From contig NZ_VISL01000001.1 in the NCBI RefSeq assembly GCF_007827465.1, positions 253,001-317,000 of the forward strand: DNA of 64,000 nt, in the 5' to 3' direction. Position 1 is the first letter of the stretch. Every line of letters starts with the position of its first letter. Made by a program: the position numbers and the translations under genes. Positions 4,777 through 63,861 of the stretch are shown here, piece by piece. The notes beneath the pieces were generated by a model that did not search any database, was not told where the DNA came from, and saw only the letters and a list, made by a program, of their open reading frames with translations. The stretch comes from Dokdonia sp. Hel_I_53 (GTDB lineage Bacteria > Bacteroidota > Bacteroidia > Flavobacteriales > Flavobacteriaceae).

Positions 4777-4794
4777 ACGCTTTCGCGAAAGCGT
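4777..4794. repeat. Iterated palindrome, intergenic, 18-bp symmetric form
   Basis: ACGCTTTCGCGAAAGCGT, the 14-bp core with two further symmetric bases each side. It lies between the stop of lptD and the start of ridA. Confidence 0.97.
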
Positions 4795-4807
4795 ATAAAG
4801 ATACAAT

Positions 4808-7627
4808 CTATAAACGCTGATCTGGCGTTCTACGCTTATCGTATTTAATATCACTCAATAGGTTTCCAGAAATACCAATAAAGAAGTTCCAAGAGGTACG
4901 ACTTGTATTTGCATTTACTGGCGGAACCCAGCTAAAGCGCATATTCCAACTCTGAAGATCACGTGCAAAATTTAAAGAAGTGTATGTAATGCCTGGATTT
5001 GCAAAATCGTAGCCTGTAGAGCCTCCTACAGTCCATCTATTTCCTAGTTTAATATCGCCACTCACCACTAGAGAATGGCTTGTTATTTCATCCTGCCTAG
5101 CAGTATTAGAATAGCCTACTTGATAGCCAAATCTTAAATTCCAAGGAATTTTAAATCTATAAAATTGAACTTCTTTTTCTTCTTCTTCTTTAGGGTCTCT
5201 CGTACCTATATTTTCGTTTCCAGTAATATCTACTCCCTTTCCAAACAAATCATCTGGACGTCCACCGGCGGCAAACGTTTCATTTTCTGTGCGATCTGTA
5301 TTTTCTCCAGGCTCATCTCCTCCTTTTTCAAAATCTCTACTTGAGAAACTATAACCAAAACTAGCCTGTCCAGCGGTCCACCTAAAGAGGCTACCACCAT
5401 TTTGAATATTTAATTTTTCAATACGCCTATTAGAACTGTTTAGTGCATACAAGTCTAAGGCTGCACTGAAATTAATGTCTAGCTTGTCCTGTATTATAGG
5501 GATAGATCCATTTATACCTATTGGTGATAATTTCAAACCATCGGCAGCAAAATTGTAGGATGTACGTATGTTTAAGTTATTAATGAGTTTTATCTTCTTG
5601 GGTTCTGTAGCCGTACTATCACGATCTTTTACCTTGGCCTCTAGCGTATTTGCAAGTGATAATGAGATAGAGTTAGAAATACGATTACCAGGAGCCCCAA
5701 AAAATCCATTGTCAAAACGAGAATATTCAACATCGATTGTCTCTGGATTAGTATTGTCTATTTGGGTAGGATCCAGTCTCTCATAACTTGTATAAAATTG
5801 ATCAAAAGCAGGCGTATATGACCAGCTTAGAGAAGGGCGTATCACATGGCGTATCGTTTGTATTTTACTCCCTTCTTTAAAATTAAACGTACCATAAACA
5901 GTAGTACCTAAACTTAAACCACCACGATACGTCCTAAATGCATCAAAACCGTTAATAGTATCTATCACCTCAGTTTGAGTGCGTTCGTCATAGTTTTTGT
6001 CGATCGTTTTAAACACCCAGCTCTCTTCAAAGTTTGCACTTGCTGAGGCACTGATATAGTTAAAGAGCTTAAAGTTAGTAGCAATTGGGATATTATGACG
6101 TATTCCACTTTGACCGTCTTCAAACATAGCAGCAGTAAAAAATTCGCTATCTGTAGTTCTGTATCGATTATCTGCATTTACAGAGTAACTCAGGTTTACA
6201 TTATCAATAAGCCCTTTCTTTGATCCAGATTTACCAGCAAATGGATAAATACGATCTATACTAAGTTGAGCGCTTGGTAAAGACATATTTATAGTCTCGG
6301 TTTGTGAGTTTTGACTGTGTGTTGCAGCCACGGTAAAGTTAATAGGAGTTACTCCAGGAAATGTACGAGAGTAGGATATAGAGGAACTAAAGTTGTTGTT
6401 GAGGAAATTCCCCGTGTTAGATTGATTTAAAGACTGTCTATAAAAATTACTACTTCCTAGGTTTACAGAGGCAGAAAACCTACTATTAGGACTTGATTTA
6501 GTATCTTGACTATGATTCCAACGTATATTATAGGTGTTAGTTTCACTAAAATCAGGTAGACCTCGTTCACTAAATAAAATACGCTCAGAATTAAAACTGA
6601 AGCGACCACTAAATTTATAGCGCACCTTATACTCTGTATCTGCTCTAAAGGCGTAACTGCCATTAGTATAATAATCACCTGTGAGTGCTAGATCAAAATA
6701 ATCACTTAACGCAAAATAATAGCCACCATTTTGCAGAGAATAACCGCGCTCATTTGATTCATTAAAACTTGGTATCAAAAATCCAGAAACGCTTCTTTCT
6801 TTTTCCATTGGGAAAAAAGCAAACGGAATTCCTATAGGAGTTGGAACATCTGCGATGTACATATTTGTAAGCCCTGCAACTAGCTTTTTACCTGGAACAA
6901 ATTTTACTCGGCGCGCATAAAAGTAATATTCTGGGTCATCTAGATCTTCTGCAGTTGTAATTTTTACATTACTCATAAAAACGACAGAGTCATTTACACG
7001 TTTACTACGTTCTGCTTTGAGATTAATTTGTTGTCCCCCAGCCCCTTCAACTCTGGATCCATATATAAGTGCTCGCTGTGTGTCAAAATTAAATTTAATA
7101 GAGTCTGGTTGCACTTCATTAGCACCTTGAACAAATACTGGTATTTGTGAATAATTTCCAGCAGAGTCTTTTATACCCTTTGCAAGTACTGTATTAGTTT
7201 GATAATCTAACACAATTTCACCAGCATTGATTTTCATATCTTCATAGACAACCTCTGCTTCGTTATATAAGAATATCTTTTTAAGGCGTTGTGAGATGCG
7301 TTCGTAATCTTTTGCTTTATAAGTTACTTTATCAGTAAGACGCTCTTGTTTTTTACGCGTTGAATCTTGATCTGGAGTTGATTCTGCTACTTGTAGCGAG
7401 TCTGTAGCAACATCAGAACTACCACGAGTAGCTATCAGAGAACCTTTTGCGTAGGACTGTTGTTTTAAATCTGGATTTTTATCGTTAGTGATTGCAGGCA
7501 CTACACGAGTGGTACTGGTATCTTTTTTGGCATTGTTATTGGATTCATTGTCTTGACCTAAAGCTGTTGCTTGGGTGAATAGGCATAAGCCAATGAGAAT
7601 AAGAAAAAATGCAGTTTTTGTTTGCAA
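4808..7627 (-). CDS. lptD: LPS-assembly outer-membrane translocon protein LptD
   Basis: 939 residues. An N-terminal signal peptide (hydrophobic core to about residue 24, ending near ALGQ) is followed by a low-complexity Asp/Thr/Ser-rich stretch to about 95. A periplasmic OstA/LptD-type beta-jellyroll region follows (for example YNEAEVVYEDMKINAGEIVL and QINLKAERSKRVNDS). The remaining roughly 650 residues are alternating aromatic/polar strands of a large beta-barrel (PFAFFPMEKERSVSGFLIPSF is a conserved entry point). LptD inserts LPS in the outer leaflet. The length fits Bacteroidota LptD. The gene is divergent from the amidase gene with a candidate -7 element at 7671-7678. Confidence 0.88.
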   Translation of the reverse strand: MQTKTAFFLILIGLCLFTQATALGQDNESNNNAKKDTSTTRVVPAITNDKNPDLKQQSYAKGSLIATRGSSDVATDSLQVAESTPDQDSTRKKQERLTDKVTYKAKDYERISQRLKKIFLYNEAEVVYEDMKINAGEIVLDYQTNTVLAKGIKDSAGNYSQIPVFVQGANEVQPDSIKFNFDTQRALIYGSRVEGAGGQQINLKAERSKRVNDSVVFMSNVKITTAEDLDDPEYYFYARRVKFVPGKKLVAGLTNMYIADVPTPIGIPFAFFPMEKERSVSGFLIPSFNESNERGYSLQNGGYYFALSDYFDLALTGDYYTNGSYAFRADTEYKVRYKFSGRFSFNSERILFSERGLPDFSETNTYNIRWNHSQDTKSSPNSRFSASVNLGSSNFYRQSLNQSNTGNFLNNNFSSSISYSRTFPGVTPINFTVAATHSQNSQTETINMSLPSAQLSIDRIYPFAGKSGSKKGLIDNVNLSYSVNADNRYRTTDSEFFTAAMFEDGQSGIRHNIPIATNFKLFNYISASASANFEESWVFKTIDKNYDERTQTEVIDTINGFDAFRTYRGGLSLGTTVYGTFNFKEGSKIQTIRHVIRPSLSWSYTPAFDQFYTSYERLDPTQIDNTNPETIDVEYSRFDNGFFGAPGNRISNSISLSLANTLEAKVKDRDSTATEPKKIKLINNLNIRTSYNFAADGLKLSPIGINGSIPIIQDKLDINFSAALDLYALNSSNRRIEKLNIQNGGSLFRWTAGQASFGYSFSSRDFEKGGDEPGENTDRTENETFAAGGRPDDLFGKGVDITGNENIGTRDPKEEEEKEVQFYRFKIPWNLRFGYQVGYSNTARQDEITSHSLVVSGDIKLGNRWTVGGSTGYDFANPGITYTSLNFARDLQSWNMRFSWVPPVNANTSRTSWNFFIGISGNLLSDIKYDKRRTPDQRL

Positions 7628-7638
7628 TGCGATTAGCC

Positions 7639-7646
7639 TATTTTTG
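7639..7646 (+). promoter_or_regulatory. Possible -7 element toward the amidase gene
   Basis: TATTTTTG matches TAnnTTTG on the plus strand in the 177-bp divergent region. It lies about 160 bp before the amidase start, which would give a long leader, and no -33 TTG is evident. Weak support. Confidence 0.2.
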
Positions 7647-7670
7647 TACGGAGTGCCTCAATTCAAATGC

Positions 7671-7678
7671 CAAAATTA
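7671..7678 (-). promoter_or_regulatory. Candidate -7 promoter element of lptD
   Basis: CAAAATTA on the plus strand reads TAATTTTG on the minus strand, matching the Bacteroidota -7 consensus TAnnTTTG. It sits 44 bp upstream of the lptD ATG, giving a leader of roughly 35-40 nt. No clear TTG lies at the expected -33 distance, so support is moderate. Confidence 0.35.
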
Positions 7679-7804: not shown

Positions 7805-8941
7805 ATGCGTAAAAAAAATAATTTTAATATATATTTAACTATTTTACTTCTCGCAGGAAGTTTAATTCATTCCGCTTTCGCGAAAGCGCAAACTAAGCAG
7901 CGAGAAAAGTTTAAAATTGTATTAGATGCTGGTCATGGTGGGAAAGATAGCGGAAATCGAGGTAATGGATATTATGAAAAAAACATTGCCCTCAATGTTG
8001 TTTTGGCAATAGGGGGTCAATTAGAACAACTCGATGATGTAGAAGTGATTTATACACGTAAGAAAGATGTCTTTCTAGAGTTGTGGGAACGAGCAGATAT
8101 CGCAAATAACTCTAACGCTGATCTTTTTATAAGTGTGCATTGTAACTCACATTCATCCCAAGCAAAAGGTACCGAGACCTTCGTTTTAGGTATAGGAGGA
8201 AATGCAAAGAACATGGCAATTGCAAAAAAGGAAAACTCTGTGATTTTGCTTGAGGACAATTATGAAAAGCGGTATGCTGGTTTTGATCCTAACAAGCCTG
8301 AGACTTCTATTGGCTTAGAATTGATGCAGGAAGAATATTTAGATCAGAGTATTAATCTCGCCAGTTTTATAGAAAATGAATTCACTAGCACTGTTAAGAG
8401 ATCAAGTCGAGGAGTCAAGCAGGCAATTTTTTGGGTTTTACATAGATCAGTAATGCCTAGCGTTCTTATAGAAACTGGTTTCTTAACTAATAATGAAGAA
8501 GGTAGATTTCTTAACTCTAAAAACGGTCAAGAGAAAATGGCCAGTGCTATTTCTAAAGCGGTTGTAAATTATAAGGAAAGTATACAGGCTGTAGAGCGAG
8601 TGGCTTTGATACAAAAGGAAGCACAAACCTCAATTGAGCCTATTGAAAATGAGACTGCTATCGTAGATAAACCTATTTCTACACCTGGCATTACATTTAA
8701 AGTTCAGGTCGCTGCTAGCAAGACCATGCTAGAAACGCAACCTTACAATTTTAAACAACTTATCAATGTTACCCGTGTAAGAGACAATAACTTTTATAAA
8801 TATTACTATAAGTCTACAAATGACTATGCGCAAGCTAGAAAATACTTAGAGGAGGCTAAGCTCGCGGGATATGAAGAGGCATTTATTGTTTCTTTTAATG
8901 AGCAAAATATTAAAGTCCCACTTAATCAAGTGTTAAATTAG
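7805..8941 (+). CDS. N-acetylmuramoyl-L-alanine amidase (Amidase_3) with SPOR-like tail
   Basis: 378 residues. A signal peptide ends at AFAKAQ, and those residues are encoded by the palindrome at 7873. The Amidase_3 zinc domain covers about 35-250: LDAGHGGKDSG supplies the first His, a Glu follows in GYYEKNIALN, ISVHCNSH supplies the second His, and VLIETGFLTN contains the catalytic Glu. Residues 300-378 (FKVQVAASK, then aromatic-rich segments and a final strand) look like a SPOR or SPOR-like septal peptidoglycan-binding domain. The enzyme cleaves the amide between MurNAc and the stem peptide during cell separation. The mlaD gene follows after a 66-bp gap that contains a hairpin. Confidence 0.9.
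   Translation: MRKKNNFNIYLTILLLAGSLIHSAFAKAQTKQREKFKIVLDAGHGGKDSGNRGNGYYEKNIALNVVLAIGGQLEQLDDVEVIYTRKKDVFLELWERADIANNSNADLFISVHCNSHSSQAKGTETFVLGIGGNAKNMAIAKKENSVILLEDNYEKRYAGFDPNKPETSIGLELMQEEYLDQSINLASFIENEFTSTVKRSSRGVKQAIFWVLHRSVMPSVLIETGFLTNNEEGRFLNSKNGQEKMASAISKAVVNYKESIQAVERVALIQKEAQTSIEPIENETAIVDKPISTPGITFKVQVAASKTMLETQPYNFKQLINVTRVRDNNFYKYYYKSTNDYAQARKYLEEAKLAGYEEAFIVSFNEQNIKVPLNQVLN
7874..7887. repeat. Iterated palindrome inside the amidase gene
   Basis: Exact 14-mer GCTTTCGCGAAAGC, read in frame as Ala-Phe-Ala-Lys-Ala at the end of the signal peptide. Confidence 0.97.
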
Positions 8942-11326: not shown

Positions 11327-11660
11327 AGCTATACTATTACTTGTGTTCTTATGCTTTTGTGCTTTCGCGAAAGCGCAAATATCTACACAAGATTATCGCA
11401 TAGACAGCTTACAGTTTAAAATGTATACACGTATTTATGTGGGGCCACAACTTCAAGTAGATAGTATAACAGTTAGAAAAATATTTTGCGATTGGTGCTC
11501 AGAATCTCAGATAGATATTTTACATCAAGAAGCGATGAGACAGTCTATGATAGAAAGATATAATCCGAAATATAGAAAACCTGGTCAACATAGATTAGCA
11601 TTGTATGTACGCTTTAGCAAAGAAGATTTTAAAAACTTAAATAGCACGGATGGATACTGA
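11316..11660 (+). CDS. Small secreted protein of unknown function between Fe-S genes
   Basis: 114 residues. The signal peptide has a hydrophobic core (ILLLVFLCFCAFAKAQ) and a cleavage region encoded by the palindrome at 11361. The mature part is about 92 residues, with a Cys pair in IFCDWCSE and a basic middle; I recognise no family. The gene overlaps both neighbours (11 bp with the Fe-S gene, 11 bp with the HAD-like gene), which indicates translational coupling. The signal peptide and both overlaps make it a real gene despite its size. Its product would be periplasmic or outer-membrane associated, opposite the membrane Fe-S protein. Confidence 0.7.
   Translation: MKRKAILLLVFLCFCAFAKAQISTQDYRIDSLQFKMYTRIYVGPQLQVDSITVRKIFCDWCSESQIDILHQEAMRQSMIERYNPKYRKPGQHRLALYVRFSKEDFKNLNSTDGY
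11361..11374. repeat. Iterated palindrome inside the small secreted protein gene
   Basis: Exact GCTTTCGCGAAAGC, read as Ala-Phe-Ala-Lys-Ala at the predicted signal-peptide cleavage region, as in the amidase gene. Confidence 0.97.
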
Positions 11661-13026: not shown

Positions 13027-13028
13027 TT

Positions 13029-13664: not shown

Positions 13665-13690
13665 TTTTACGCTTTCGCGAAAGCGTAAAA
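13665..13690. repeat. Iterated palindrome, intergenic, 26-bp symmetric form
   Basis: The exact core at 13671-13684 is extended symmetrically by six bases on each side (TTTTAC on the left, GTAAAA on the right). This is the longest perfect palindrome of the series, in the gap before the GH3 fusion gene. Confidence 0.97.
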
Positions 13691-16712: not shown

Positions 16713-16726
16713 GCTTTCGCGAAAGC
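16713..16726. repeat. Iterated palindrome between the GH3 fusion and bshA
   Basis: Exact GCTTTCGCGAAAGC, one further symmetric base each side, in the 46-bp gap between the two plus-strand genes. Confidence 0.97.
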
Positions 16727-18438: not shown

Positions 18439-21351
18439 ATGTTTTCTTATTTTTATATAATGAATTTAAAGCTTCTTGCCTTACAGAAAATACTTGAAGG
18501 TAAACTACATTATGATACTTTACACAAAGTGATATATGCCACTGATGCGTCTGTTTACCGTAAGATTCCTTTAGCAGTTGCATATCCAAAATCTGTTAAT
18601 GACATAAAGAAGTTATGCCACTTTGCAAGAGTTAATAAAACATCACTTATTCCTAGAACTGCTGGAACATCACTAGCGGGTCAATGTGTCGGTGATGGTA
18701 TTGTGGTAGATGTTTCAAAGCATTTTACGGAGATACTAAGTTTTGATAAAGAGAAAGCTCAAATTACCGTTCAACCTGGAGTTGTAAGAGATGAGTTAAA
18801 TGCTTTCTTAAAACCTTACGGCTTATTTTTTGGTCCCAATACCTCTACAGCAAATAGATGTATGATAGGTGGTATGGTGGGCAATAACTCTTCTGGAACT
18901 ACGAGTATTCAGTATGGAGTAACACGAGATAAGCTTATCAAACTAAAAACGATTTTATCAGATGGGAGTGAAGCAACTTTTGAGTCTTTAGACGAAGACC
19001 GCTTTCGCGAAAAATTGAAACAGAAAAACTTAGAAGGGATAATTTATAATCGAATCAATGATGAATTAAAGAATTCTGATACTCGAAAAAATATTCATTC
19101 TCAATTTCCAAAACCAAAAATCCATAGAAGGAATACTGGATATGCCTTGGACACACTTACAACAGCAATTCCTTTTCAAAATGGAGGTAAGCCTTTTAAT
19201 ATGTGTACACTACTCTCGGGTAGTGAAGGTACACTGGCTTTTACCACAGAAATCACATTACAACTAGACCTTTTACCTCCAAGTCAGCGTGTAATGGTAG
19301 CAGCGCATTTTGATAGTTTAACTGCCTGTTTAAAGGCAGTAGTGCCAGCTATGAATCACAATCTATATACTTGTGAGATGATGGACAAAGTCATTCTAGA
19401 CTGCACAAAAAATAATAGAGAGCAACTCAAGAATCGTTTTTTTATAGAAGGAGATCCTGCAGCCATCCTAATGTTTGAACTACGCGATAACACATTAGAA
19501 GGATCTAGATATCAGGCACAAAAACTTATAACTACTCTCATTAATGAAAATATAGGTTATGCTTATCCAATGCTGGAAGGTTTTGAAATTGATCAAGCCA
19601 TGGAACTTCGTAAAGCAGGATTAGGGCTTTTAGGCAATTTAGTAGGTGATCATAAGGCTGTAGCTTGTATAGAAGACACAGCAGTAGCAATAGAAGATCT
19701 AGCGAGCTATATTGACGAGTTTACATCAATCATGGACCGTTTTGATCAAAAAGCGGTGTATTATGCGCACGCAGGTGCTGGCGAGATTCACCTTAGACCA
19801 ATACTTAATCTAAAAAAGCTTAATGATGTAGCACTCTTTAGAAAAATCACAACGGAAGTTGCTACATTGGTAAAGAAGTATAGAGGGTCTATGAGTGGTG
19901 AGCATGGCGATGGTATTGTAAGAGCAGAGTTTATCGAGATGATGGTTGGTAAACAGAATTTTCAAATAATGAAACAGATTAAAACTGCTTTTGATCCTCA
20001 AAACATTTTTAATCCAGGTAAGATTATTGATCCGTTACCTATGGATAAAAATTTACGTTATGAAGTAGATCGTACAGAACCAGAAGTAAAGACACTACTT
20101 AATTTTGATGATAATCATGGGATCCTCCGATTAGCTGAAAAATGTAATGGTAGTGGCGATTGCAGAAAACCATCTAATGTTGGTGGAACTATGTGTCCTA
20201 GTTATCGTGCGACCCGTGATGAAAAAGATACTACACGTGCTAGAGCAAATGCATTACGTGAATTTTTAACCACATCAGAGAAAGCTAATAAATATGATCA
20301 CGTAGAGCTAAAAGAAGTATTTGATTTATGTTTAAGCTGTAAGGCTTGTGCCAGCGAGTGTCCCAGTAATGTAGATGTAGCTTCTCTCAAAGCAGAATTT
20401 GAGTATCAATATCAAAAATCTAATGGTTCTAGTCTTAGAACGAAGTTGTTTGCTCATGCGACTAAAATTAACAAAATAGCTGCAAGCTTACCTAAAGGCT
20501 ATAATTTTTTACTCAAAACTACTGGAAGTGTTTTAAAATTTTCTATGGGAATTGCTAGTAAACGTAGCTTGCCATTGCTTGATGTGTTTAAAGGTAAAAT
20601 GGATACTAAACTATCTGAAAATAGAATCAAAACTGTCTATTTATATGTTGATGAATTTTCAGAATATTTAGATGGGTCAATTGCTGAAGATGCAATGTAT
20701 TTATTAGATAAACTCCACTATAAAGTAAAAATTTTAAAAGGATTAGAAAGTGGACGGTCTTACATATCAAAGGGGTTTCTTGATCAAGCAAAAAAATTGG
20801 CAAATAAAAATATTAAAACCGTTCAATCTATATCAGATAATTCAGCACCAATTATTGGAATAGAGCCATCTGCATTATTAACTTTTAGAGATGAGTACCT
20901 GCGTTTAGCAGATGATCTGGAAGCAGCAAAGTCTATCTCAAATAGATCATTTTTGATAGAAGAGTTTCTAGATAAAGAGGTAGCACTGGGAAATATAAAA
21001 GCAGATCAATTTTCTGCAAAAGCAAAGAAAATTAAAATTCACGCCCACTGTCATCAAAAGGCGTTATCATCGGTTTCTCCCACATTTAAAATTTTGAATC
21101 TACCTATTAATTATTCACCCACAATCATTCCTTCTGGGTGCTGTGGGATGGCGGGTAGTTTTGGATATGAAAAAGAACATTATGCCGTTAGTATGAATGT
21201 AGGTGAACAAACACTTTTTCCGGCTATAAGAAAGGCAGATTCTAGTACAATAATTGTTGCAAATGGTACAAGTTGCCGTCATCAAATCAAAGATGGTACT
21301 GCTATAACTGCCTTACATCCAGTGACTATTTTAAGGGAGGCACTACTATAG
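18439..21351 (+). CDS. FAD-linked oxidase fused to Fe-S/CCG protein (D-lactate/2-hydroxyacid dehydrogenase type)
   Basis: 970 residues, starting at ATG 18439 or the in-frame ATG at 18460. The FAD_binding_4 domain (about 40-270) has PRTAGTSLAGQCVGDGIVVD and GGMVGNNSSGTTS. The FAD-oxidase C-terminal domain follows, with HAGAGEIHLRP and SGEHGDGIVRAEF (catalytic His). Residues from about 555 hold a ferredoxin-type module with CNGSGDCRK, MCPSYRATRDE and CLSCKACASECPSNVD. The end has CCG features HCHQKAL and GCCGMAGSFGYE. The architecture is that of YdiJ/Dld-II-like proteins oxidising D-lactate or D-2-hydroxyglutarate and passing electrons to quinone. Substrate not decidable. Confidence 0.88.
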   Translation: MFSYFYIMNLKLLALQKILEGKLHYDTLHKVIYATDASVYRKIPLAVAYPKSVNDIKKLCHFARVNKTSLIPRTAGTSLAGQCVGDGIVVDVSKHFTEILSFDKEKAQITVQPGVVRDELNAFLKPYGLFFGPNTSTANRCMIGGMVGNNSSGTTSIQYGVTRDKLIKLKTILSDGSEATFESLDEDRFREKLKQKNLEGIIYNRINDELKNSDTRKNIHSQFPKPKIHRRNTGYALDTLTTAIPFQNGGKPFNMCTLLSGSEGTLAFTTEITLQLDLLPPSQRVMVAAHFDSLTACLKAVVPAMNHNLYTCEMMDKVILDCTKNNREQLKNRFFIEGDPAAILMFELRDNTLEGSRYQAQKLITTLINENIGYAYPMLEGFEIDQAMELRKAGLGLLGNLVGDHKAVACIEDTAVAIEDLASYIDEFTSIMDRFDQKAVYYAHAGAGEIHLRPILNLKKLNDVALFRKITTEVATLVKKYRGSMSGEHGDGIVRAEFIEMMVGKQNFQIMKQIKTAFDPQNIFNPGKIIDPLPMDKNLRYEVDRTEPEVKTLLNFDDNHGILRLAEKCNGSGDCRKPSNVGGTMCPSYRATRDEKDTTRARANALREFLTTSEKANKYDHVELKEVFDLCLSCKACASECPSNVDVASLKAEFEYQYQKSNGSSLRTKLFAHATKINKIAASLPKGYNFLLKTTGSVLKFSMGIASKRSLPLLDVFKGKMDTKLSENRIKTVYLYVDEFSEYLDGSIAEDAMYLLDKLHYKVKILKGLESGRSYISKGFLDQAKKLANKNIKTVQSISDNSAPIIGIEPSALLTFRDEYLRLADDLEAAKSISNRSFLIEEFLDKEVALGNIKADQFSAKAKKIKIHAHCHQKALSSVSPTFKILNLPINYSPTIIPSGCCGMAGSFGYEKEHYAVSMNVGEQTLFPAIRKADSSTIIVANGTSCRHQIKDGTAITALHPVTILREALL
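19001..19014. repeat. Degenerate copy of the iterated palindrome in the FAD/Fe-S gene
   Basis: GCTTTCGCGAAAAA: left arm and centre intact, last two bases changed. Read in a different frame from most copies (Arg-Phe-Arg-Glu-Lys). Confidence 0.7.
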
Positions 21352-21453: not shown

Positions 21454-22518
21454 ATGGCTGGTAACACTTACGGCACACTATTTAATCTTACAACATACGG
21501 TGAGTCTCACGGTAAAGCTATAGGAGGTATACTAGATGGATGTCCTGCTGGTTTAGAAATAGACTTTAAAGCGATACAACGTGACTTAGATCGTCGTAAA
21601 CCAGGACAATCTAAAATTGTGACCCAGCGCAAGGAACCTGACACGGTAGATTTTCATTCTGGAATATTTGAAGGAAAAACTACAGGAACTCCCATAGGAT
21701 TTCAGATTGTAAACACCAATCAAAAATCTAAAGACTATAGTCATATTAAAGATACCTACAGACCTAGTCATGCAGATTATACCTATGATAAAAAGTATGG
21801 AAACCGTGATTATCGAGGAGGTGGGCGCTCTTCTGCTAGAGAAACAGCATCTAGAGTTGTTGCAGGAGCGATCGCAAAACAATTCTTAAAAAATATAAAC
21901 TTCTTTGCTTTTACCAGTGCGGTAGGAGATTTAGTGATGGACACTCCTTATCAAGAGTTAGATTTTTCTCAAATTGAAAAAAATGAGGTAAGATGTGCTG
22001 ATCCCGCTTTCGCGAAAGCGTGTAAAGAAAAAATAAAACTTATCAAAAAGGAGGGAGATACCATTGGAGGAGTAATCACCTGTGTCATTCAGAATGTACC
22101 AATTGGTCTTGGAGAGCCTGTGTTTGATAAGTTGCATGCAGAACTTGGAAAAGCGATGCTTTCTATTAATGCAGTTAAAGGCTTTGAATACGGAAGCGGT
22201 TTTGCAGGTGCACAAATGAAAGGTAGTGCTCACAATGACCACTTTAATACAGATGGATCTACAAAAACAAACCTTAGCGGAGGTGTGCAGGGTGGAATTT
22301 CTAATGGAATGGACATTTACTTTAATGTAGCTTTTAAGCCTGTTGCAACAGTTATGCAAAAACAAGAAACTATTAATGCAACAGGAGAAAAGGTTGTGAT
22401 GCAAGGTAAAGGACGTCACGATCCTTGTGTAGTGCCTCGAGCTGTACCTATTGTAGAGGCTATGGCAGCGCTCGTCATTGCAGATTTTGTACTTCGTGAC
22501 AAAACTGCTAGATTGTAA
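21454..22518 (+). CDS. aroC: Chorismate synthase
   Basis: 354 residues from ATG at 21454, the usual length; the longer frame starts at TTG six codons earlier and I reject it. The enzyme converts EPSP to chorismate with reduced FMN, the last shared step of aromatic amino acid synthesis. Diagnostic blocks are [19 protein letters not shown] at the N-terminus, [14 protein letters not shown] near 125, HNDHFN in the central loop, and [20 protein letters not shown] near the end. A palindrome copy inserts Ala-Phe-Ala-Lys-Ala near residue 185. It stands alone between two unrelated genes; no other aro gene is adjacent. Confidence 0.95.
22006..22019. repeat. Iterated palindrome inside aroC
   Basis: Exact GCTTTCGCGAAAGC, read as Ala-Phe-Ala-Lys-Ala in the variable region between two conserved blocks, where an insertion would be tolerated. 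Confidence 0.97.
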
Positions 22519-25221: not shown

Positions 25222-26065
25222 ACTTACTATTGCAGAGATGATTGCCAAAATAGGTAAAGAAGAGCCTTTTGAGGCTGTTGCTCACGACTATTCATTCACC
25301 TTAAAAATAGAGGAGTATACACATTTTTTATGTGCTGCCGTACATGACGGACATCAATTTAGAAAAGAATTGTGGGATAATTGTTTACATACAGCATATG
25401 ATAGATGGTACGAAGAGGATCCATGTACAGGTCAAATGATTCAAACAATGCCTATGGTTTTAGTAGGCTGCGATAGTCGTTTTGAGTACGATCTTAATCG
25501 AGCACCAGACGTAGCTATCTACGAAGACGCGTGGGGCAAAAAACTATGGAAGAACCCACTTTCTTCAGAAGAGAAAGAGAGGAGTTTATCTAAGCATCGG
25601 GAGTTCTATTATGTGGTAGAGGCACTACTATCAAAGATGGAAGAAAAATTTGGCGCCGCGATTGTTTTTGATATGCATTCATATAATTGGAAGCGATGGG
25701 ATAGGCCGGTTCCTGTTATTAATCTTGGAACAGAAAATATTGATAACGATCGCTTTTCTGCTTTCGCGAAAGCGTGGAGAGATTCATTGGCATCCATCGA
25801 ATTACCAAATGATATTCAGACCACTGCGGACATAAATGATACCTTCCAAGGAAATGGATATTTTCTAAAATTTATCACAGAGCATTTTAAACAAACACTT
25901 GTTCTTGCTACAGAGTTTTCTAAAATCTATTGTGATGAGTTGACGCAAATTGTATACCCTGAGATAGTGGCAGCTATTGAGGAACAATTGAAAGTAAAGC
26001 TGCGTAACCAAGCAACCCTTTTTTATAATGAATATATAGTCAAGAATAGTTTACTCCCAGAGTGA
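25214..26065 (+). CDS. N-formylglutamate amidohydrolase-like protein
   Basis: 283 residues from ATG at 25214, overlapping the ATP-grasp gene by 8 bp (the longest frame starts at TTG two codons earlier). The family carries a zinc-dependent carboxypeptidase-like fold. Visible landmarks are a His/Asp pair in AAVHDGHQFR, CDSRFEYDLNRAPD (the conserved DLNR box) and IVFDMHSYNW (putative metal-ligand His). The protein is longer than classical HutG, and no histidine-degradation genes accompany it. Its substrate is probably the amide or peptide product of the neighbouring ligase. A palindrome copy inserts Ala-Phe-Ala-Lys-Ala near residue 184. Confidence 0.82.
   Translation: MFKLTIAEMIAKIGKEEPFEAVAHDYSFTLKIEEYTHFLCAAVHDGHQFRKELWDNCLHTAYDRWYEEDPCTGQMIQTMPMVLVGCDSRFEYDLNRAPDVAIYEDAWGKKLWKNPLSSEEKERSLSKHREFYYVVEALLSKMEEKFGAAIVFDMHSYNWKRWDRPVPVINLGTENIDNDRFSAFAKAWRDSLASIELPNDIQTTADINDTFQGNGYFLKFITEHFKQTLVLATEFSKIYCDELTQIVYPEIVAAIEEQLKVKLRNQATLFYNEYIVKNSLLPE
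25760..25773. repeat. Iterated palindrome inside the N-formylglutamate amidohydrolase-like gene
   Basis: Exact GCTTTCGCGAAAGC, read as Ala-Phe-Ala-Lys-Ala (SAFAKAW). Confidence 0.97.
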
Positions 26066-27962: not shown

Positions 27963-27982
27963 TACGCTTTCGCGAAAGCGTA
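27963..27982. repeat. Iterated palindrome, intergenic, 20-bp symmetric form
   Basis: TACGCTTTCGCGAAAGCGTA, located 8 bp after the HAD stop and 24 bp before the thioesterase start. Confidence 0.97.
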
Positions 27983-35337: not shown

Positions 35338-36240
35338 ATGAAATTCGGCGTAGTAGATAATCCACAGCAAATAGATTTTACTTTACCTCCTGATCATCCT
35401 GATACGGAGCGTGTTTTGAGGGACGCTTTCGCGAAAGCAAAAAATAAAAATCTTCAACTATACGTAGGCTGCGCAAAATGGAATAAAGCAGAGCTCAAAG
35501 GATTTTATCCAAAAGGGGTGAAAGATGAGTTGACTTATTATACGAGTCAATTTAATAGTATTGAACTTAATGCTACTTTCTATAGGCTATTTCCAAAGGA
35601 GCAATTTGTAAAATGGTATGATAAAGCCCCAGAGGGTTTTAAATTTTTTCCTAAAATCACAAATATAATCAGCCACCGAAAGCGGTTGATTGATGCTCAA
35701 GAATTTATTCCAGAATATGTGGACCATGTTTCTATGTTGCAAGAAAAACTAGGCACGGTGTTTTTACAAATGCACAATAATTTTCAACCTAAAGATTTTG
35801 ATCGGGTAGATAATTTTGTAAATCACTGGCCAGAAAATTTACCTATTGCATTAGAATTTCGTCATACAGACTGGTTTAATAATCCAGAAGTAGCCGAAAG
35901 ATTATACCATTTACTTGAAGAGCATCATATGGCAAATGTGATTGTTGATACCGCAGGTCGTCGCGATATTATGCATATGCGTTTAACTAATGGAGAGGCA
36001 TTTATTAGATACGTTGGTGCAAACCATCCAAGTGACTACGCACGGCTTGATGCTTGGATAGAGCGTCTCCAATATTGGGTTGACTTAGGATTAAGAAAGA
36101 TTAATTTTTTTGTACATCAAAATGTAGAGCAAGAAAGTACAGTATTATCTGCTTACTTTATTAAAAAAATGAACTCTACATTAGGAACAAATCTTCATGT
36201 TCCTCATAGCGCTCATACAGGAGAACAAACATTGTTTTAA
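35338..36240 (+). CDS. DUF72 family protein (YecE-like TIM barrel)
   Basis: 300 residues. It shows the DUF72 pattern: LYVGCAKWNKAELKGFYP near residue 40, YYTSQFNSIELNATFYRL near 66, FKFFPKITNIISHRKRL near 101, LGTVFLQMHNNF near 140 and PIALEFRHTDWF near 170. The family has a TIM-barrel fold related to endonuclease IV/xylose isomerase-like proteins, and no reaction is established. A palindrome copy lies in its N-terminal region and encodes AFAKAK. It is divergent from the LolA-like gene. Confidence 0.85.
   Translation: MKFGVVDNPQQIDFTLPPDHPDTERVLRDAFAKAKNKNLQLYVGCAKWNKAELKGFYPKGVKDELTYYTSQFNSIELNATFYRLFPKEQFVKWYDKAPEGFKFFPKITNIISHRKRLIDAQEFIPEYVDHVSMLQEKLGTVFLQMHNNFQPKDFDRVDNFVNHWPENLPIALEFRHTDWFNNPEVAERLYHLLEEHHMANVIVDTAGRRDIMHMRLTNGEAFIRYVGANHPSDYARLDAWIERLQYWVDLGLRKINFFVHQNVEQESTVLSAYFIKKMNSTLGTNLHVPHSAHTGEQTLF
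35425..35438. repeat. Iterated palindrome inside the DUF72 gene
   Basis: Exact GCTTTCGCGAAAGC, read as Ala-Phe-Ala-Lys-Ala before the conserved domain begins. Confidence 0.97.
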
Positions 36241-39709: not shown

Positions 39710-41071
39710 TTATAAAAGTCCTCGCGCTTTAATTTCTAAATACTTATTAATGGTATTTACCGTAAGATCATCAGGCTTCGTAAGTATAGTTTGGATACCA
39801 TATTTTTCTAAGGTTGCTACCATTACTTTTTTATCATAGTAAGATTTTTCTGCAATTGTTTTATGGTATACTTCGGGAAGGGTATGTGCTTTTTTATGGA
39901 TAAGATTTTCGAGTTCTGTGTTTTGAAAAAAGATCACCACGAGAACATGCTTTCGCGAAAGCGCTTTTAAATAAGGAAGCTGTCTTTCTAAAGCAGAGAT
40001 GTGCTCAAAATTAGTATATAAGAGTAATAAACTACGCTGTGTGATTTTGCGTTTAACTTGCGTATACAATGCGCCAAAATCGCTATCTAAAAACTTTGTA
40101 TTAACACTATATAGCACTTCTAGAATAGTTTGTAAGTGTGTTTTTTTACTACTTGCAGGCAGCTGATTTATGATGGTATTTGCAAAAGTAACCATTCCTA
40201 CTTTATCCTTCTTTTTAAGCGCAATATTTGAAAAAGCTAGTGTGCTGTTTATGGCATAGTCTAATAGTGAAAGCCCATTAAAAGGCATTTTCATTACCCT
40301 ACTTGCATCAATGATAGCATATACGGGCTGTGCCTTTTCATCTTGAAACTGATTTACCATTAAACTAGCACGCTTTGCTGTAGCTTTCCAATTAATAGTA
40401 CGGGCATCATCACCTATCACATAATCTTTGATTTGTTCAAACTCCATCGTATGGCCTATACGTCGTAATTTTTTCATTCCGTGTAGAGTAAGTCTATTGT
40501 CTAGCGCCAGAAATGCATATCGCTTCATCTGGATAAATGACGGATACACTTTAACCATCTGATCATTTTCAAATCTATATCTCCTTCTAATTAATGCGAT
40601 TTTAGAACTCACATAGAGGTTGAGGTGGCCAAATATATATTCACCTCTTTCTGTGGGTCTTAGGTAGTAAGAAAAATCCTTTGATGATTTTGCAGGAATA
40701 AAAAGCGTTTTAGAAAAATCTCGTTTTTGGAATTGAACGGGTATTTCATCAATGATAGCTATATTGACCTTAAAAGGGTATTTATTTTCAACTCTTATGA
40801 TCAATTCATTTGCATCGCTATTTGAAAATTTTTCTGGGAGAGCTCTTACCGCATTAATTTTTCCGCTTTCGCGAAAGAGTACTAAGGCATCTATAAAAAC
40901 AAATACAACTAATAATAGCAACAAGACATTTGCCACACCAAAAAAGCTGTTGAAAAAATAGGAGACTATATAACACACCCCGATGCTTCCTAAGCAATAA
41001 AATAGTCGCTCATGAACAAAAAAGCCTTTTATGAATTTGATTATGCCCAATTTTTTATCTTGGAATTTCAA
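39710..41071 (-). CDS. DUF58 (vWA-like) membrane protein
   Basis: 453 residues. Two N-terminal membrane helices (about 20-65) are followed by an extracytoplasmic/beta region and a DUF58 core: EFEQIKDYVIGDDARTINWK with R-T-I-N-W-K, then a vWA-like domain (VYAIIDASRVM, LDYAINSTLAFSNIALKKKDKVGMVTF). DUF58 proteins partner MoxR ATPases, and the MoxR gene overlaps this one by 17 bp. One exact and one degenerate palindrome copy lie in the gene, read as Leu-Ser-Arg-Lys and Phe-Arg-Glu-Ser. A chaperone or metal-insertion role is inferred from other MoxR systems. Confidence 0.87.
   Translation of the reverse strand: MKFQDKKLGIIKFIKGFFVHERLFYCLGSIGVCYIVSYFFNSFFGVANVLLLLLVVFVFIDALVLFRESGKINAVRALPEKFSNSDANELIIRVENKYPFKVNIAIIDEIPVQFQKRDFSKTLFIPAKSSKDFSYYLRPTERGEYIFGHLNLYVSSKIALIRRRYRFENDQMVKVYPSFIQMKRYAFLALDNRLTLHGMKKLRRIGHTMEFEQIKDYVIGDDARTINWKATAKRASLMVNQFQDEKAQPVYAIIDASRVMKMPFNGLSLLDYAINSTLAFSNIALKKKDKVGMVTFANTIINQLPASSKKTHLQTILEVLYSVNTKFLDSDFGALYTQVKRKITQRSLLLLYTNFEHISALERQLPYLKALSRKHVLVVIFFQNTELENLIHKKAHTLPEVYHKTIAEKSYYDKKVMVATLEKYGIQTILTKPDDLTVNTINKYLEIKARGLL
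39949..39962. repeat. Iterated palindrome inside the DUF58 gene
   Basis: Exact GCTTTCGCGAAAGC; the only exact genic copy not read in the AFAKA frame (here Leu-Ser-Arg-Lys). Confidence 0.97.
40865..40878. repeat. Degenerate copy of the palindrome inside the DUF58 gene
   Basis: GCTTTCGCGAAAGA on the plus strand: one mismatch at the last base. Read on the minus strand as Phe-Arg-Glu-Ser. Confidence 0.85.
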
Positions 41072-43342: not shown

Positions 43343-44142
43343 AGTGAACTATATAAGGTTTTAAATGAGGATTCTGCTTTCGCGAAAGCGTTCACATCAA
43401 CTTCAAAATTTCCATACCAGATATAATCGTAAATGGCAGTTACCTTGCTAAATTGGTTTTTTGTGTTTTGATTTTGAATTTCATTGATATAATCGTGGTT
43501 TGTTTTTTGTACCTCCCAGTTAATAAGATCATTACTACTCATTTTTTGAAGAGTCATGAGGTAATAGTAACGAACGGCTATGCGATACTTTTTATTACGT
43601 ATAGCTTGATCTAATAGTTTTTGTAAATCTGATCTTTGTATTAAAAGTTCATCATCAGAAAGCAATGTTTCTGGCACCTTTATTTTTTCCATGAGAAGAT
43701 TACCACTATCCAATTTAAGAAATAGCCAGACAATTAGCGTCACTACTGCCACTATTAAGAGATAGGGTAGAGCTTTCACAATCATTGCCCATATCCCAAC
43801 AGCTTCTTTACCATCTAGTAACCAATGAATGAATTTATGGTAAAGGTCATTTAATTTTTGCTTTAAGCGTGTCCACCAGTTATCTTCTGGTAAAGCTTCT
43901 TTATAATTAAAATCCTCGTTTACTTGGTATGCTTCTATACTTTTCTGATCAATGGGCACTCTAACAATGCTACTTTTGTCGTATTCTAAAGATTTACGTG
44001 GGTTTTGGTAAGACTCATCGATTGTAATTGTATCCTGTACAAGAATTGCTTTCTCTGCAATTGCTAAATTTTGAGCTATAGCAGCTCCATTTGCATAAAG
44101 CGAACTTATAAAAATTAGTAAGACAAAAGGAATTTTATTCAT
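43339..44142 (-). CDS. DUF4129-type membrane protein
   Basis: 267 residues. A signal-like helix (1-22), a polar region with the PEDNWWTRLKQKLNDLYHKF helix, a membrane helix near 122-143 (LPYLLIVAVVTLIVWLFL), and a C-terminal cytoplasmic helical domain with IRNKKYRIAVRYYYLMTLQK and INEIQNQNTK, the usual DUF4129 end. A palindrome encodes NAFAKAES near the C-terminus. DUF4129 domains commonly accompany MoxR/DUF58 pairs and, in other bacteria, transglutaminase-like proteins. It overlaps its neighbours by 4 and 8 bp. Confidence 0.75.
   Translation of the reverse strand: MNKIPFVLLIFISSLYANGAAIAQNLAIAEKAILVQDTITIDESYQNPRKSLEYDKSSIVRVPIDQKSIEAYQVNEDFNYKEALPEDNWWTRLKQKLNDLYHKFIHWLLDGKEAVGIWAMIVKALPYLLIVAVVTLIVWLFLKLDSGNLLMEKIKVPETLLSDDELLIQRSDLQKLLDQAIRNKKYRIAVRYYYLMTLQKMSSNDLINWEVQKTNHDYINEIQNQNTKNQFSKVTAIYDYIWYGNFEVDVNAFAKAESSFKTLYSSL
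43376..43389. repeat. Iterated palindrome inside the DUF4129 gene
   Basis: Exact GCTTTCGCGAAAGC, read on the minus strand as Ala-Phe-Ala-Lys-Ala near the C-terminus. Confidence 0.97.
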
Positions 44143-48351: not shown

Positions 48352-48365
48352 GCTTTCGCGAAAGC
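48352..48365. repeat. Iterated palindrome between the CoA-binding and TlpA-like genes
   Basis: Exact GCTTTCGCGAAAGC, with no symmetric extension because the right flank reads AT rather than GT. Confidence 0.97.
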
Positions 48366-50123: not shown

Positions 50124-51923
50124 TTATAAGTCGAGATCAAAAGTTTTTCTAAGTGTATCGAGTGCAGGATTTTGCTCAAGCAATTTATCATATTTCTCTT
50201 GAGGAGTGTATGCATATTTGCGTTGTACTTCTTCATTAACGGAGATCTCTAAGGTAATGTCATAATTTTGCAGCGTTCTTTTAAGAAATTCTAGCAAAGG
50301 CCCTTGCGCACGCTCAACTTCAACCTTCATAGTTTCATTTGGATACTCTAACAGTATGCTTGTTCCATTTAAAGTAGGTTGGTCTGCCTCTAGATTTGAA
50401 GCAATTATTTTTTCACCTTTTTGTATAAGTTTAGATACATAATCACTCCAAGCTGCTTGCATTGCAATTTCAGAAAAAGGTTCTGAAGGAAGATTTTCTA
50501 TATCTACTTTTTTGTTTGCACGTTTTTCTTCTAACTCTTTTTTCTTCTGTAGTCCTTTGAGTGAGAGTCCAGAAACTCTGTCTTTTCTTAATGCAAGGTT
50601 AGGTACAGCTGTTGTTGTAGGAGAGGGTAGTGGTTTAACAGGATTACCTTCAGTAACTCCTGAGCTAAAATTCACAGGTGCTGTACCTTTGGTAACCGAA
50701 TTATCTTGAATGTTTTCCTTTAGATTATCTGGCGCTGGAGAATTAGATATCTCTCCACGTTCTTTTTTTAAGTCAGAATCAGAAGTGCTTAATTCCTCAA
50801 GTTTAGAACTATTAACTTTATAATATGATGGAGGTATTAAGAAGGGTTTATTCTTTTTTTTTTCTCCATCAAATGTGATAGAGGCGAGCTGCATTAAAGA
50901 TAGTTCAACAAGTAATCGTTGATTTCGACTAGTTCTATATTTTAGATCACAAGTATTAGCAATCTCAATGGCTTCCATTAAAAAGGACATATCTGTTTGC
51001 TGTGATTGCTCGTAGTATTTCTTCTTTGTGGTATCACCTACTTCTAAAAGGTGTATTGTGGGTGGATTTTTGCAAACCATTAAGTCCCTAAAATGTGATG
51101 CTAATCCTGCAATAAAATGATGTCCATCAAAACCGCGAGAAAGGATGTCATTAAATTGTACAAGAAGCTGAGGAATATCGTTTACTAGAATTAAATCTAC
51201 ACATTTAAAATAGGTGTCGTAGTCTAAAACATTTAAATTCTCAGTGACCGCTTTTCGCGAAAGCGTTTTACCACTAAAACTTACTACCCTATCAAAAATG
51301 GAAAGTGCATCACGCATCGCACCATCAGCCTTTTGCGCGATAATGTGTAGTGCTTCTTCATCTGCTTCAATACCTTCCTCTTCCGCTATCAGAACAAGGT
51401 GTTTACGTGCGTCTGTAACTGTAATTCTTTTAAAATCAAAGATTTGACATCGCGATAGTATGGTTGGTATTATTTTATGTTTCTCTGTGGTTGCGAGTAT
51501 GAAAATAGCATGCTTAGGAGGCTCCTCTAGTGTTTTAAGAAAAGCATTAAACGCTGCAGCTGAGAGCATGTGAACCTCATCTATAATATAGACTTTATAT
51601 TTTCCTACTTGGGGAGGTATACGTACCTGATCAATCAAGCTACGTATATCATCTACAGAGTTGTTTGAGGCAGCATCTAACTCAAATACATTAAAAGCAA
51701 AGTCTTCATCAGGACTTGTATGTTCATCTGTATTTATTTGCTTTGCTAGTATGCGAGCACAACTCGTCTTACCCACTCCTCGGGGTCCGCAAAAGAGTAA
51801 TGCCTGTGCCAAGTGGTTATTAGCAATTGCATTTTCAAGCGTATTTGTAATAGCCTGCTGTCCTACAACATCTTTAAATGTAGTAGGACGATATTTACGG
51901 GCAGATACTATAAAAGGTTCCAT
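50124..51923 (-). CDS. dnaX: DNA polymerase III subunit tau/gamma
   Basis: 599 residues. The AAA+ clamp-loader core is clear: Walker A CGPRGVGKTSCARILA at 45-60, VYIIDEVHMLSAAAFNAFLK Walker B, the conserved LEEPPKHAIFILATTEKHKI, and SRCQIFDFKRI. The usual CX8CX2CX2C zinc module between Walker A and ELDAASNN is absent: only C45 and C55 lie in that region. A Pro/Ser/Thr-rich linker (about 360-450) leads to a C-terminal tau-like domain that should bind the polymerase. miaE follows. A degenerate palindrome copy lies near residue 222. Confidence 0.95.
   Translation of the reverse strand: MEPFIVSARKYRPTTFKDVVGQQAITNTLENAIANNHLAQALLFCGPRGVGKTSCARILAKQINTDEHTSPDEDFAFNVFELDAASNNSVDDIRSLIDQVRIPPQVGKYKVYIIDEVHMLSAAAFNAFLKTLEEPPKHAIFILATTEKHKIIPTILSRCQIFDFKRITVTDARKHLVLIAEEEGIEADEEALHIIAQKADGAMRDALSIFDRVVSFSGKTLSRKAVTENLNVLDYDTYFKCVDLILVNDIPQLLVQFNDILSRGFDGHHFIAGLASHFRDLMVCKNPPTIHLLEVGDTTKKKYYEQSQQTDMSFLMEAIEIANTCDLKYRTSRNQRLLVELSLMQLASITFDGEKKKNKPFLIPPSYYKVNSSKLEELSTSDSDLKKERGEISNSPAPDNLKENIQDNSVTKGTAPVNFSSGVTEGNPVKPLPSPTTTAVPNLALRKDRVSGLSLKGLQKKKELEEKRANKKVDIENLPSEPFSEIAMQAAWSDYVSKLIQKGEKIIASNLEADQPTLNGTSILLEYPNETMKVEVERAQGPLLEFLKRTLQNYDITLEISVNEEVQRKYAYTPQEKYDKLLEQNPALDTLRKTFDLDL
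51250..51264. repeat. Degenerate copy of the palindrome inside dnaX
   Basis: GCTTTTCGCGAAAGC: one inserted T compared with the 14-mer. It keeps the dnaX frame (Leu-Ser-Arg-Lys), which suggests it arose before or independently of later drift. Confidence 0.8.
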
Positions 51924-54313: not shown

Positions 54314-54331
54314 TCGCTTTCGCGAAAGCGA
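54314..54331. repeat. Iterated palindrome, intergenic, 18-bp symmetric form
   Basis: TCGCTTTCGCGAAAGCGA, in the 77-bp gap between the convergent LytTR and LETM1-related genes. No T-run follows, so it is not a standard terminator. Confidence 0.97.
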
Positions 54332-56799: not shown

Positions 56800-56815
56800 A
56801 ATGGGTTGGTATGGG

Positions 56816-56837
56816 TTACGCTTTCGCGAAAGCGTAA
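56816..56837. repeat. Iterated palindrome, intergenic, 22-bp symmetric form
   Basis: The exact core at 56820-56833 is extended by four symmetric bases each side (TTAC left, GTAA right). It lies in the divergent pepT/pyrD region. Confidence 0.97.
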
Positions 56838-56881
56838 TTATCATCCTTTCTTAAGTACTTCAAAAATACCGCTTTTTGGAC

Positions 56882-60589: not shown

Positions 60590-60609
60590 TACGCTTTCGC
60601 GAAAGCGTA
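60590..60609. repeat. Iterated palindrome, intergenic, 20-bp symmetric form
   Basis: TACGCTTTCGCGAAAGCGTA in the divergent region between the GH13 gene and pyrR, about 30 bp upstream of the predicted pyrR -7 element. Confidence 0.97.
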
Positions 60610-61212: not shown

Positions 61213-61217
61213 TTAAT

Positions 61218-62147: not shown

Positions 62148-62149
62148 AA

Positions 62150-62485
62150 ATGAAGATTACCTCAAAAGATAAGTATACGATCTTAGCAGACGATCGTGGT
62201 AGCGTAGCAGATTTTGCAACACATTTAGAGTTTATAGTGCCTAAACATTATGATCAATATAACTTAATAATTGATTTATTAAAATATGAAGATCTGTCTT
62301 TAGAGCAATTAATTGCATTCTTAAAACTCTCTAACTACCAGCGAGCAGATAAAAAATCATTTGTGATTGTTAATAAAAATATCAATTACGATTTTATTCC
62401 TGATGAAATGGTTGTGGTTCCTACAATACAAGAAGCAATAGATGTGATTGAAATGGAAGAGATAGAGCGAGATCTCGGTTTATAA
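62150..62485 (+). CDS. STAS-like small protein between pyrB and rnz
   Basis: 111 residues. The pattern DRGSVADFATHLEFIVPKHY, LIIDLLKYEDLSLEQLIAFL, SFVIVNKNINYDFIPDEM and TIQEAIDVIEMEEI resembles a STAS/anti-sigma-factor-antagonist fold, with a long second helix and terminal helices. Databases often label it ribonuclease Z because of its neighbour; it has none of the metal motifs. It sits 2 bp after pyrB and 7 bp before rnz, a conserved order in Flavobacteria. No serine site for phosphorylation is evident by eye. Function unknown. Confidence 0.72.
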   Translation: MKITSKDKYTILADDRGSVADFATHLEFIVPKHYDQYNLIIDLLKYEDLSLEQLIAFLKLSNYQRADKKSFVIVNKNINYDFIPDEMVVVPTIQEAIDVIEMEEIERDLGL

Positions 62486-62492
62486 TTTTACA

Positions 62493-63410: not shown

Positions 63411-63424
63411 AAAAAAAAGCTCCA

Positions 63425-63838
63425 ATGGAAGAAGAAATAAAAAGAATTGCAAAACCTATATTAGGACGTTTACAAGAGCATTTTGATAGATTGATACCTC
63501 GCAATTTGTTTTTGGTAAATCCAGATGTTAGATTAAAAAAAGTGCACAAAACCTACGGGTCAACTTCTGTAAAAGATAACATAAGTATTTCTTTTAAAAT
63601 AGTTCTTTTTGAAGATCAATATATTTGTGAGTACTTCTTAGACGCAGATGGATATACTGAGCATAGGAGATATAATATCTCAACAGATCAAACAGAAATG
63701 TTAGAGAATTTTGAAGGTCAATTTGGTGCTGCAGCTCTTGAAGATGATGACATGTCATATGAGGAGTTTACACGTATTCGTAAGCACAATGACTCAGTTA
63801 GGAAACTTTTAATAAAGAAAGGATTCATGAAAAAATAG
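63425..63838 (+). CDS. Conserved hypothetical protein (137 residues)
   Basis: Starts MEEEIKRIAKPILGRLQEHF and has a helical N-terminus, then a beta-rich middle (NISISFKIVLFEDQYICEYF), an acidic loop (ALEDDDMSYEEFTRIR) and a basic C-terminal helix ending IKKGFMKK. It has no signal peptide, membrane segment or recognised catalytic motif. It follows rnz after 14 bp and is probably the last gene of the operon. A helical/beta nucleic-acid- or protein-binding role is possible, but I cannot name a family. Confidence 0.7.
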   Translation: MEEEIKRIAKPILGRLQEHFDRLIPRNLFLVNPDVRLKKVHKTYGSTSVKDNISISFKIVLFEDQYICEYFLDADGYTEHRRYNISTDQTEMLENFEGQFGAAALEDDDMSYEEFTRIRKHNDSVRKLLIKKGFMKK

Positions 63839-63847
63839 GTGAAGATC

Positions 63848-63861
63848 GCTTTCGCGAAAGC
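63848..63861. repeat. Iterated palindrome after the last gene of the window
   Basis: Exact GCTTTCGCGAAAGC, 9 bp after the stop at 63838, without symmetric extension (flanks C and A). Confidence 0.97.

Follow-up and report, generated by a model that had tools for sequence, protein, structure and literature searches.

Short palindromes that recur across a bacterial chromosome have been described in several forms. The sites of Noc, SlmA and MatP are palindromic protein sites spread over a chromosome, and marks of this type are restricted to, or excluded from, the terminus region. Repetitive extragenic palindromic (REP) elements have as their hallmark a REP-associated tyrosine transposase (RAYT) in the same genome. 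For iterated palindromes such as the highly iterated palindrome HIP1 of cyanobacteria (GCGATCGC), we know of no accepted function. Here we describe a 14-bp palindrome, GCTTTCGCGAAAGC, present in 16 exact copies in a 64-kb stretch of DNA (C1:253001-317000, hereafter the window) from Dokdonia sp. Hel_I_53, a flavobacterium whose genome is a single contig of 2.93 Mb.

No report of the 14-mer was found in the literature searched, with most subscription papers and all preprints outside that search. Publications containing the 10-mer core did not concern a bacterial iterated repeat, judging by their titles and the starts of their abstracts, and no report was found that combined HIP with Flavobacteri, or an over-represented palindrome or uptake sequence with Bacteroidetes. 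In the one paper checked from the Dokdonia literature mentioning palindromes, the passages concerned use the word for clustered regularly interspaced short palindromic repeats (CRISPR) only, and the PRO95 genome paper describes no such repeat in its passages on repeat, motif, methyl, competence or transformation.

An exact palindrome is iterated throughout the genome

An earlier note on the window had listed the starts of 16 exact copies, and all were confirmed. Together with three near copies they make 19 matches at no more than two mismatches, against a mean of 0.13 and a maximum of 2 in dinucleotide shuffles of the window. At the window's G+C content of 34.8%, about 0.00006 exact copies are expected (a hand calculation from the product of base frequencies), close to the value of about 0.0001 that the note had given for an assumed 36%. 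Scanning for Rfam families and tRNA genes gave no match in the window. The full-chromosome count, which the note had regarded as a possible refutation, yielded 700 exact copies of the 14-mer and none of a reversed, uncomplemented control pattern. This number is not near expectation, and agrees with the note's description of a HIP1-like iterated palindrome of different sequence.

Detailed analyses covered 29% of the genome. In 464 kb, we counted 110 exact copies, while 209 other palindromes with equal half-site composition totalled 0. In the same DNA, 134 of the 158 occurrences of TCGCGA fell within TTCGCGAA, and the other 24 were fewer than the Markov expectation of 36.8. The mismatch profile was steep: 854 kb contained 191 exact copies, 27 with one mismatch and 41 with two, whereas 100 composition-matched palindromes averaged 0, 0.10 and 1.27, respectively. 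The sequences flanking the copies are unrelated to one another, and the note was right that the copies are not one mobile element.

The extended site and its gene context

In the Hel_I_53 genome the site extends to (T)TACGCTTTCGCGAAAGCGTA(A), roughly 20-22 bp, with a partly symmetric extension around the perfect dyad core. When both arms of 62 intergenic copies were scored, position -1 was C in 78% of half-sites and never G, -2 was A in 62%, -3 was T in 79% and -4 was T in 59%. In a second genus of carriers, g11, 44 intergenic copies gave C in 97% at -1, C (44%) or T (39%) at -2, T in 64% at -3 and T in 84% at -4. The frequency of A at -2 thus differs between the two (62% versus 15%; Fisher p 2e-12, from rounded counts with both arms counted). 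A constant core with an extension that has changed in g11 fits a co-evolving recognition protein.

Genes were called with a simple codon-score caller made for this analysis, which assigned 88.8% of the DNA as coding. After five copies at stretch ends were dropped, 186 of the 191 copies in 854 kb could be classified: 88 lie in coding sequences and 98 in the 11% of the DNA that is intergenic. The earlier note was right to place the copies in unrelated genes and gaps; this intergenic bias it had not seen. In the one bulk carrier from a third genus, g210, only 11 of 61 copies were intergenic. Within coding sequences, the frame AFAKA is used by 55 of the 88 copies and requires TTC and GCG, which make up 16% and 10% of the codons for their amino acids. 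Intergenic copies between genes on the same strand lie nearer to the stop codon of the upstream gene than random placement would give (mean fraction 0.36 versus 0.50, n = 58), with the centre no more than 30 bp from that codon in 29 cases, and a further 22 copies lie between divergent genes.

Individual sites are conserved within the genus

Sites lying wholly inside an alignment were compared between genomes. From the window to four syntenic congeners, 21 of 25 sites were exact (5/7, 5/6, 6/6 and 5/6) at about 75% nucleotide identity, and from the congener G016 to three others 47 of 59 were exact (14/20, 17/20 and 16/19) at 78% identity. Random aligned 14-mers were exact in only 2-3% and 5-6% of cases, respectively. 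The reverse comparison gave similar fractions, with 14/19, 17/22 and 16/20 sites of G005, G007 and G008 exact in G016, and from the window to G230 two of three sites were exact at 69% identity (control 0.4%). Aligned sites are therefore conserved within Dokdonia well beyond their surroundings, and their presence at orthologous loci in related species, a point raised by the earlier note, is evident in both comparisons. Nine of the 12 non-exact cases seen from G016 are one or two point changes; in the reverse direction this holds for 2 of 14, the others being replacements or gapped alignments. One site of G007, in the region syntenic to the window, reads GCTTTTGCAAAAGC, with both arms changed and palindromy kept.

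The window copy at 22006..22019 lies in the chorismate synthase gene, where it forms the codons of AFAKA. Of 16 congeners with sequence over these codons, 15 have the site exactly and G008 has it with one mismatch; the match in G015 does not reach this far. It is also exact in G230, despite a locus G+C content of 48.8%. The site is absent from all three g11 genomes, from seven of seven other genomes, non-carriers, and from all 74 named loci outside Dokdonia among the best 80 matches. Sequences without the site encode other residues at this place, mostly with an adjacent methionine, and the site replaces their codons at equal length. Because of this replacement, we conclude from the alignments that in chorismate synthase the DNA site has rewritten the protein without changing its length.

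Copies exclude one another along the chromosome

Under a null model that kept the intergenic/coding split of the genome, 33.4 of 171 gaps between neighbouring copies were expected to be shorter than 1 kb. Only 5 were observed, and none of 2000 simulations was as low; below 1.5 and 2 kb there were 17 and 29 gaps, against 50 and 65 under the same null. The first 437 kb of the genome gave a similar result (2/99 gaps below 1 kb versus 20 expected at random). Against a uniform null, gaps below 1 kb numbered 2/66 in G016 (16.4 expected), 0/87 in g11 (17.2 expected; coefficient of variation 0.45 versus 0.98 at random) and 0/60 in g210 (8.1 expected; coefficient of variation 0.72). In the pair correlation, copies excluded one another up to about 1 kb and were still partly depleted up to about 2.5 kb; the value reached about 1 at 2.5-3 kb, with no lattice-like pattern at longer distances. 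The closest pairs in the Hel_I_53 genome are 124, 223 and 433 bp apart, and no candidate binding gene stood out by eye beside them.

Copy density over 41 stretches did not change systematically with the distance to parB or to the GC-skew switch, which served as reference points in place of a mapped origin and terminus. We therefore rejected an origin- or terminus-linked distribution, and the idea that the palindrome marks a single part of the chromosome is unsupported. Five stretches with no more than two copies (L203, L204, L219, L274 and L278) were looked at by eye, with L209 (two copies) left out, and contained polysaccharide, mobile or defence-like, or repeated surface-protein-like genes. 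The sole sampled stretch without a copy, L274 (G000:C1:520001-540000, 20 kb), is by eye a polysaccharide biosynthesis cluster.

Carriers of the palindrome

All 17 sampled Dokdonia congeners carry the palindrome, with 369-905 copies each. In a family sample of 397 genomes, it was otherwise present in bulk only in three g11 genomes (578, 664 and 609 copies) and one g210 genome (408 copies), all other genomes having 0-19 copies; in a phylum sample of 395 genomes, Hel_I_53 alone had more than 6. Copy number did not rise significantly with genome size among 12 Dokdonia genomes at least 99% complete (Spearman 0.32, p 0.31). No palindrome of 8, 10 or 12 bp at a comparable scale was seen in loci of Winogradskyella, Salegentibacter, Flagellimonas and Arenibacter, at about 20 kb per genome, which is weak for single genomes.

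The best 80 matches to chorismate synthase were headed by six Dokdonia loci at 83-92% identity, each with 2-6 palindrome copies in 9-21 kb, and the remaining 74 loci were without even the inner 10-mer. When 108 chorismate synthase sequences were placed on a tree, a single branch separated the 27 from carriers from all others (support 83/80; present in 82% of bootstrap trees), which makes a single origin likely. The tree is of a single gene, its branches to G433 and G230 are long, and several of its named loci probably duplicate genomes of the sample. A different palindrome, AATATAGCTATATT, occurs 19 times in the 74 loci (L007-L080, including Arenibacter and Flagellimonas) versus 0.03 expected, and may represent a single orthologous site that has been conserved close to chorismate synthase.

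Copies outside the carrier clade were followed in 12 stretches from six low-count genomes (G029, G118, G127, G141, G254 and G376). Ten of these (L249-L256, L258 and L259) have gene clusters in common, with alignments at 66-99% identity; L257 aligns over 591 bp only, and L260 gave no alignment. In four genomes (L249, L250, L252 and L253) two copies lie 933 bp apart within one gene of about 406 codons, and the same distance is found in G200. The two-copy gene of L249 encodes an outer-membrane efflux protein and adjoins RND efflux, multicopper oxidase and heavy-metal ATPase genes. Related metal-efflux clusters bearing the palindrome are found in several other flavobacterial genera, and they may be islands that once passed through the carrier clade.

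Low-GC IMG/VR contigs with at least two copies, among the matches listed, were L102, L119 and L124 (one 38-kb viral contig), L123 and L127, L086 and L133, and L132. Phages or prophages of the carrier clade may also bear the palindrome. A search of chorismate synthase against phages gave no match.

The other copies of the window

The copy at 4779..4792 is intergenic, directly past the stop of an LptD-like gene (4808-7627, minus strand), and is exact in four of four aligned Dokdonia relatives and not in G230. That at 7874..7887, read AFAKA near the N terminus of an N-acetylmuramoyl-L-alanine amidase gene, is likewise exact in all four. The copy at 11361..11374, intergenic by our gene caller and inside open reading frame (ORF) 11316-11660 of the plain ORF list, is exact in three of four relatives with one mismatch in the fourth, and the intergenic copy at 13671..13684 is exact in three and replaced in G016. 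At 16713..16726, an intergenic copy directly past the stop of gene 13782-16703 has a counterpart in the same gap of all four relatives, with indels alongside. In ORF 13782-16703 itself, a glycosyl hydrolase family 3 domain and a beta-lactamase-type domain are fused. The copy at 25760..25773, in an N-formylglutamate amidohydrolase-like gene, is exact where aligned in L005, L006 and G230 and unaligned in the four Dokdonia relatives; the intergenic copy at 27966..27979 is absent at the aligned place in G016, and in G005, G007 and G008 this gap is unaligned and contains a copy.

The eight sites from 35425 to 63848 fall outside the aligned region in every relative. Three are genic: 35425..35438 in a DUF72 gene, 39949..39962 in ORF 39710-41071 (minus strand) and 43376..43389 near the 3' end of ORF 43339-44142 (minus strand). 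The copy at 48352..48365 is intergenic, as are 54316..54329, with convergent genes on either side, 60593..60606, with divergent genes on either side, and 63848..63861, directly past ORF 63425-63838. That at 56820..56833 is intergenic between divergent genes by the gene caller and falls within the longest form of ORF 55558-56844. The near copies have one mismatch at 40865..40878 and two at 19001..19014 and 51251..51264.

Discussion

We favour a reading in which the extended palindrome is bound by a putative homodimeric protein whose action extends over the whole chromosome and is structural, most likely organising or compacting it. Judged from sequence, we give this a probability of about 0.5. 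A homodimer is suggested because the palindrome carries a symmetric, genus-specific extension, and a function at the DNA level because genic and intergenic copies alike are conserved within the genus. The exclusion zone argues for a local, saturating benefit, and site turnover for each site being dispensable; symmetry, conservation, exclusion and turnover together point to a structural, chromosome-wide binding protein. Such a protein could work by bridging sites or by loading a spreading factor. Each site would serve the 1-2 kb around it, a second copy nearby would add little and be neither built nor kept, and long site-free stretches would be filled over time. The protein and its organising role are what we infer, its dimeric state from the symmetry of the site.

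Several observations weigh against this reading. Few aligned genic sites are common across genera: 1/6 from Hel_I_53 to g11 and 1/4 to g210, with 1/7 and 1/3 in the reverse direction. No binding protein was found within the ParB family or, by eye, among the genes beside the closest site pairs. ParB, the sole chromosome-organising family tested, is alike in carriers and non-carriers and ordinary in the four loci compared. PF17762 gave one match in 14 of 15 carriers, with a weak second match in G010, and two matches in 3 of 19 non-carriers, so a ParB/Noc paralogue was rejected in the absence of a carrier-specific second chromosomal ParB-family protein. A site can be symmetric and evenly spaced without acting inside the cell, and the contrast in spacing with the uptake signal sequences (USS) and DNA uptake sequences (DUS) of other bacteria rests on description rather than on the same spacing statistics.

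An uptake signal is the main and nearest rival, although we consider it somewhat unlikely. Competent cells of the clade would take up site-bearing DNA better, and uptake with recombination would spread the copies, as for USS/DUS. Specificity at the scale of a genus, the steep mismatch profile, the gain without length change in chorismate synthase, the aligned sites that depart from the exact form at one or two bases and the scarcity of copies in stretches judged by eye to be foreign all agree with this. ComEC (PF03772) is present in 15 of 15 carriers examined, but does not discriminate because all 8 non-carriers examined have it too. Passages of Bakkali 2007 (PMC1939737) list properties of uptake sequences that are absent from the Dokdonia palindrome: known uptake sequences are not palindromic, mostly lack a downstream bias and are less even than compaction sites would be. 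As a weak further point, neither literature listings nor passages of the PRO95 genome paper yielded a mention of competence or transformation in Dokdonia.

Elhai's model for GCGATCGC explains the palindrome as a side effect of a DNA methyltransferase acting together with methyl-directed repair. The look is the same, an iterated, GC-rich, clade-restricted palindrome with gross genome-wide over-representation, and exclusion over 1-2 kb is similar in scale to the repair range of about 1000 nt given for the model in passages of PMC4390886. We nevertheless find this explanation weakened and improbable here. None of the families PF00145, PF01555, PF02086 and PF02384, the four searched, is common to all 15 carriers examined, although different enzymes could share one site: PF00145 is absent in nine, Hel_I_53 included, PF01555 is above cut-off in two, PF02086 is absent in six, with a weak Hel_I_53 match that overlaps an rsmD-like gene by eye, and PF02384 is absent in G230. 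Among these families, G230 matches PF01555 alone and G281 matches PF02384 alone. The deficit of TCGCGA outside TTCGCGAA also speaks against the model, and we know of no methyltransferase with a site as long as 14 fixed bases. Some HIP1 genomes are themselves reported, in PMC4390886, to be without a CGATCG enzyme. The earlier note had offered binding, methylase, uptake, repair and segregation unranked; binding and uptake survive while methylase is weakened, and its interpretation as a whole is partly supported.

A role in RNA, as a terminator or a hairpin at mRNA ends, seems very improbable. The clustering behind stop codons would suit it, as would the folding of the 22-nt form (-8.3 kcal/mol, z -2.3), but the 14-mer on its own (-1.9 kcal/mol) is no more stable than its shuffles, and the genic copies and those between divergent genes do not fit. 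A terminator was rejected, as no T-run follows the 63 gene-end copies checked. That a transposase spread the palindrome as a mobile or REP-like element is scarcely credible: many copies and an intergenic preference recall REP elements, but flanks are unrelated, chorismate synthase shows an equal-length codon replacement, 88 of 186 copies lie in coding DNA, which REP elements seldom overlap according to passages of PMC12306157, and the transposase family PF01797, though present in 3/3 g11 genomes, is absent from 11 of 15 carriers, Hel_I_53 included, so that RAYT-driven spread was rejected.

Beyond a binding protein with a structural role, we tentatively suggest that a chromosome-organising system with sequence specificity evolved in this marine flavobacterial clade. 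Its protein, a dimer, would act on several hundred mutually spaced sites throughout the chromosome, with selection overriding protein sequence in places and flank preference shifting between genera as the protein evolved. To our knowledge, no comparable genome-wide, spaced, sequence-specific scaffold is known in bacteria, and it would be a new way of building the nucleoid; an uptake signal would be, as far as we know, the first palindromic one. The palindrome may also serve as a label of DNA with a history in the carrier clade, such as the copper-efflux clusters of other genera. The site is long enough for its binding protein to be fished by a single pull-down. With spaced, individually conserved copies and strains in culture (passages of PMC3587595), the question is directly testable.

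Among known systems, REP elements and bacterial interspersed mosaic elements (BIME) are likewise palindromic, numerous and near gene ends, but the Dokdonia copies are exact, about half lie in genes, and most carriers lack PF01797. The sites of Noc, SlmA and MatP share palindromy and a spread over the chromosome; the Dokdonia copies are far more numerous than those sites are known to be, follow no trend along the chromosome that would indicate terminus restriction or exclusion, and come without a carrier-specific second ParB. HIP1 is similarly an exact GC-rich palindrome in very many copies, in genes and gaps, and is restricted to a clade. The Dokdonia palindrome differs from it in length (14 bp rather than 8), in density (about one per 4 kb versus about one per 1 kb, the HIP1 value from passages of PMC4390886), in a strong mutual exclusion, not compared with HIP1 spacing, and in having none of the four tested methyltransferase families common to all carriers. 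The USS/DUS of Pasteurellaceae and Neisseriaceae resemble it in being clade-specific, of one near-exact form and gained by substitution, whereas the Dokdonia palindrome, set against their description in passages of PMC1939737, combines perfect dyad symmetry with a bias to gene ends.

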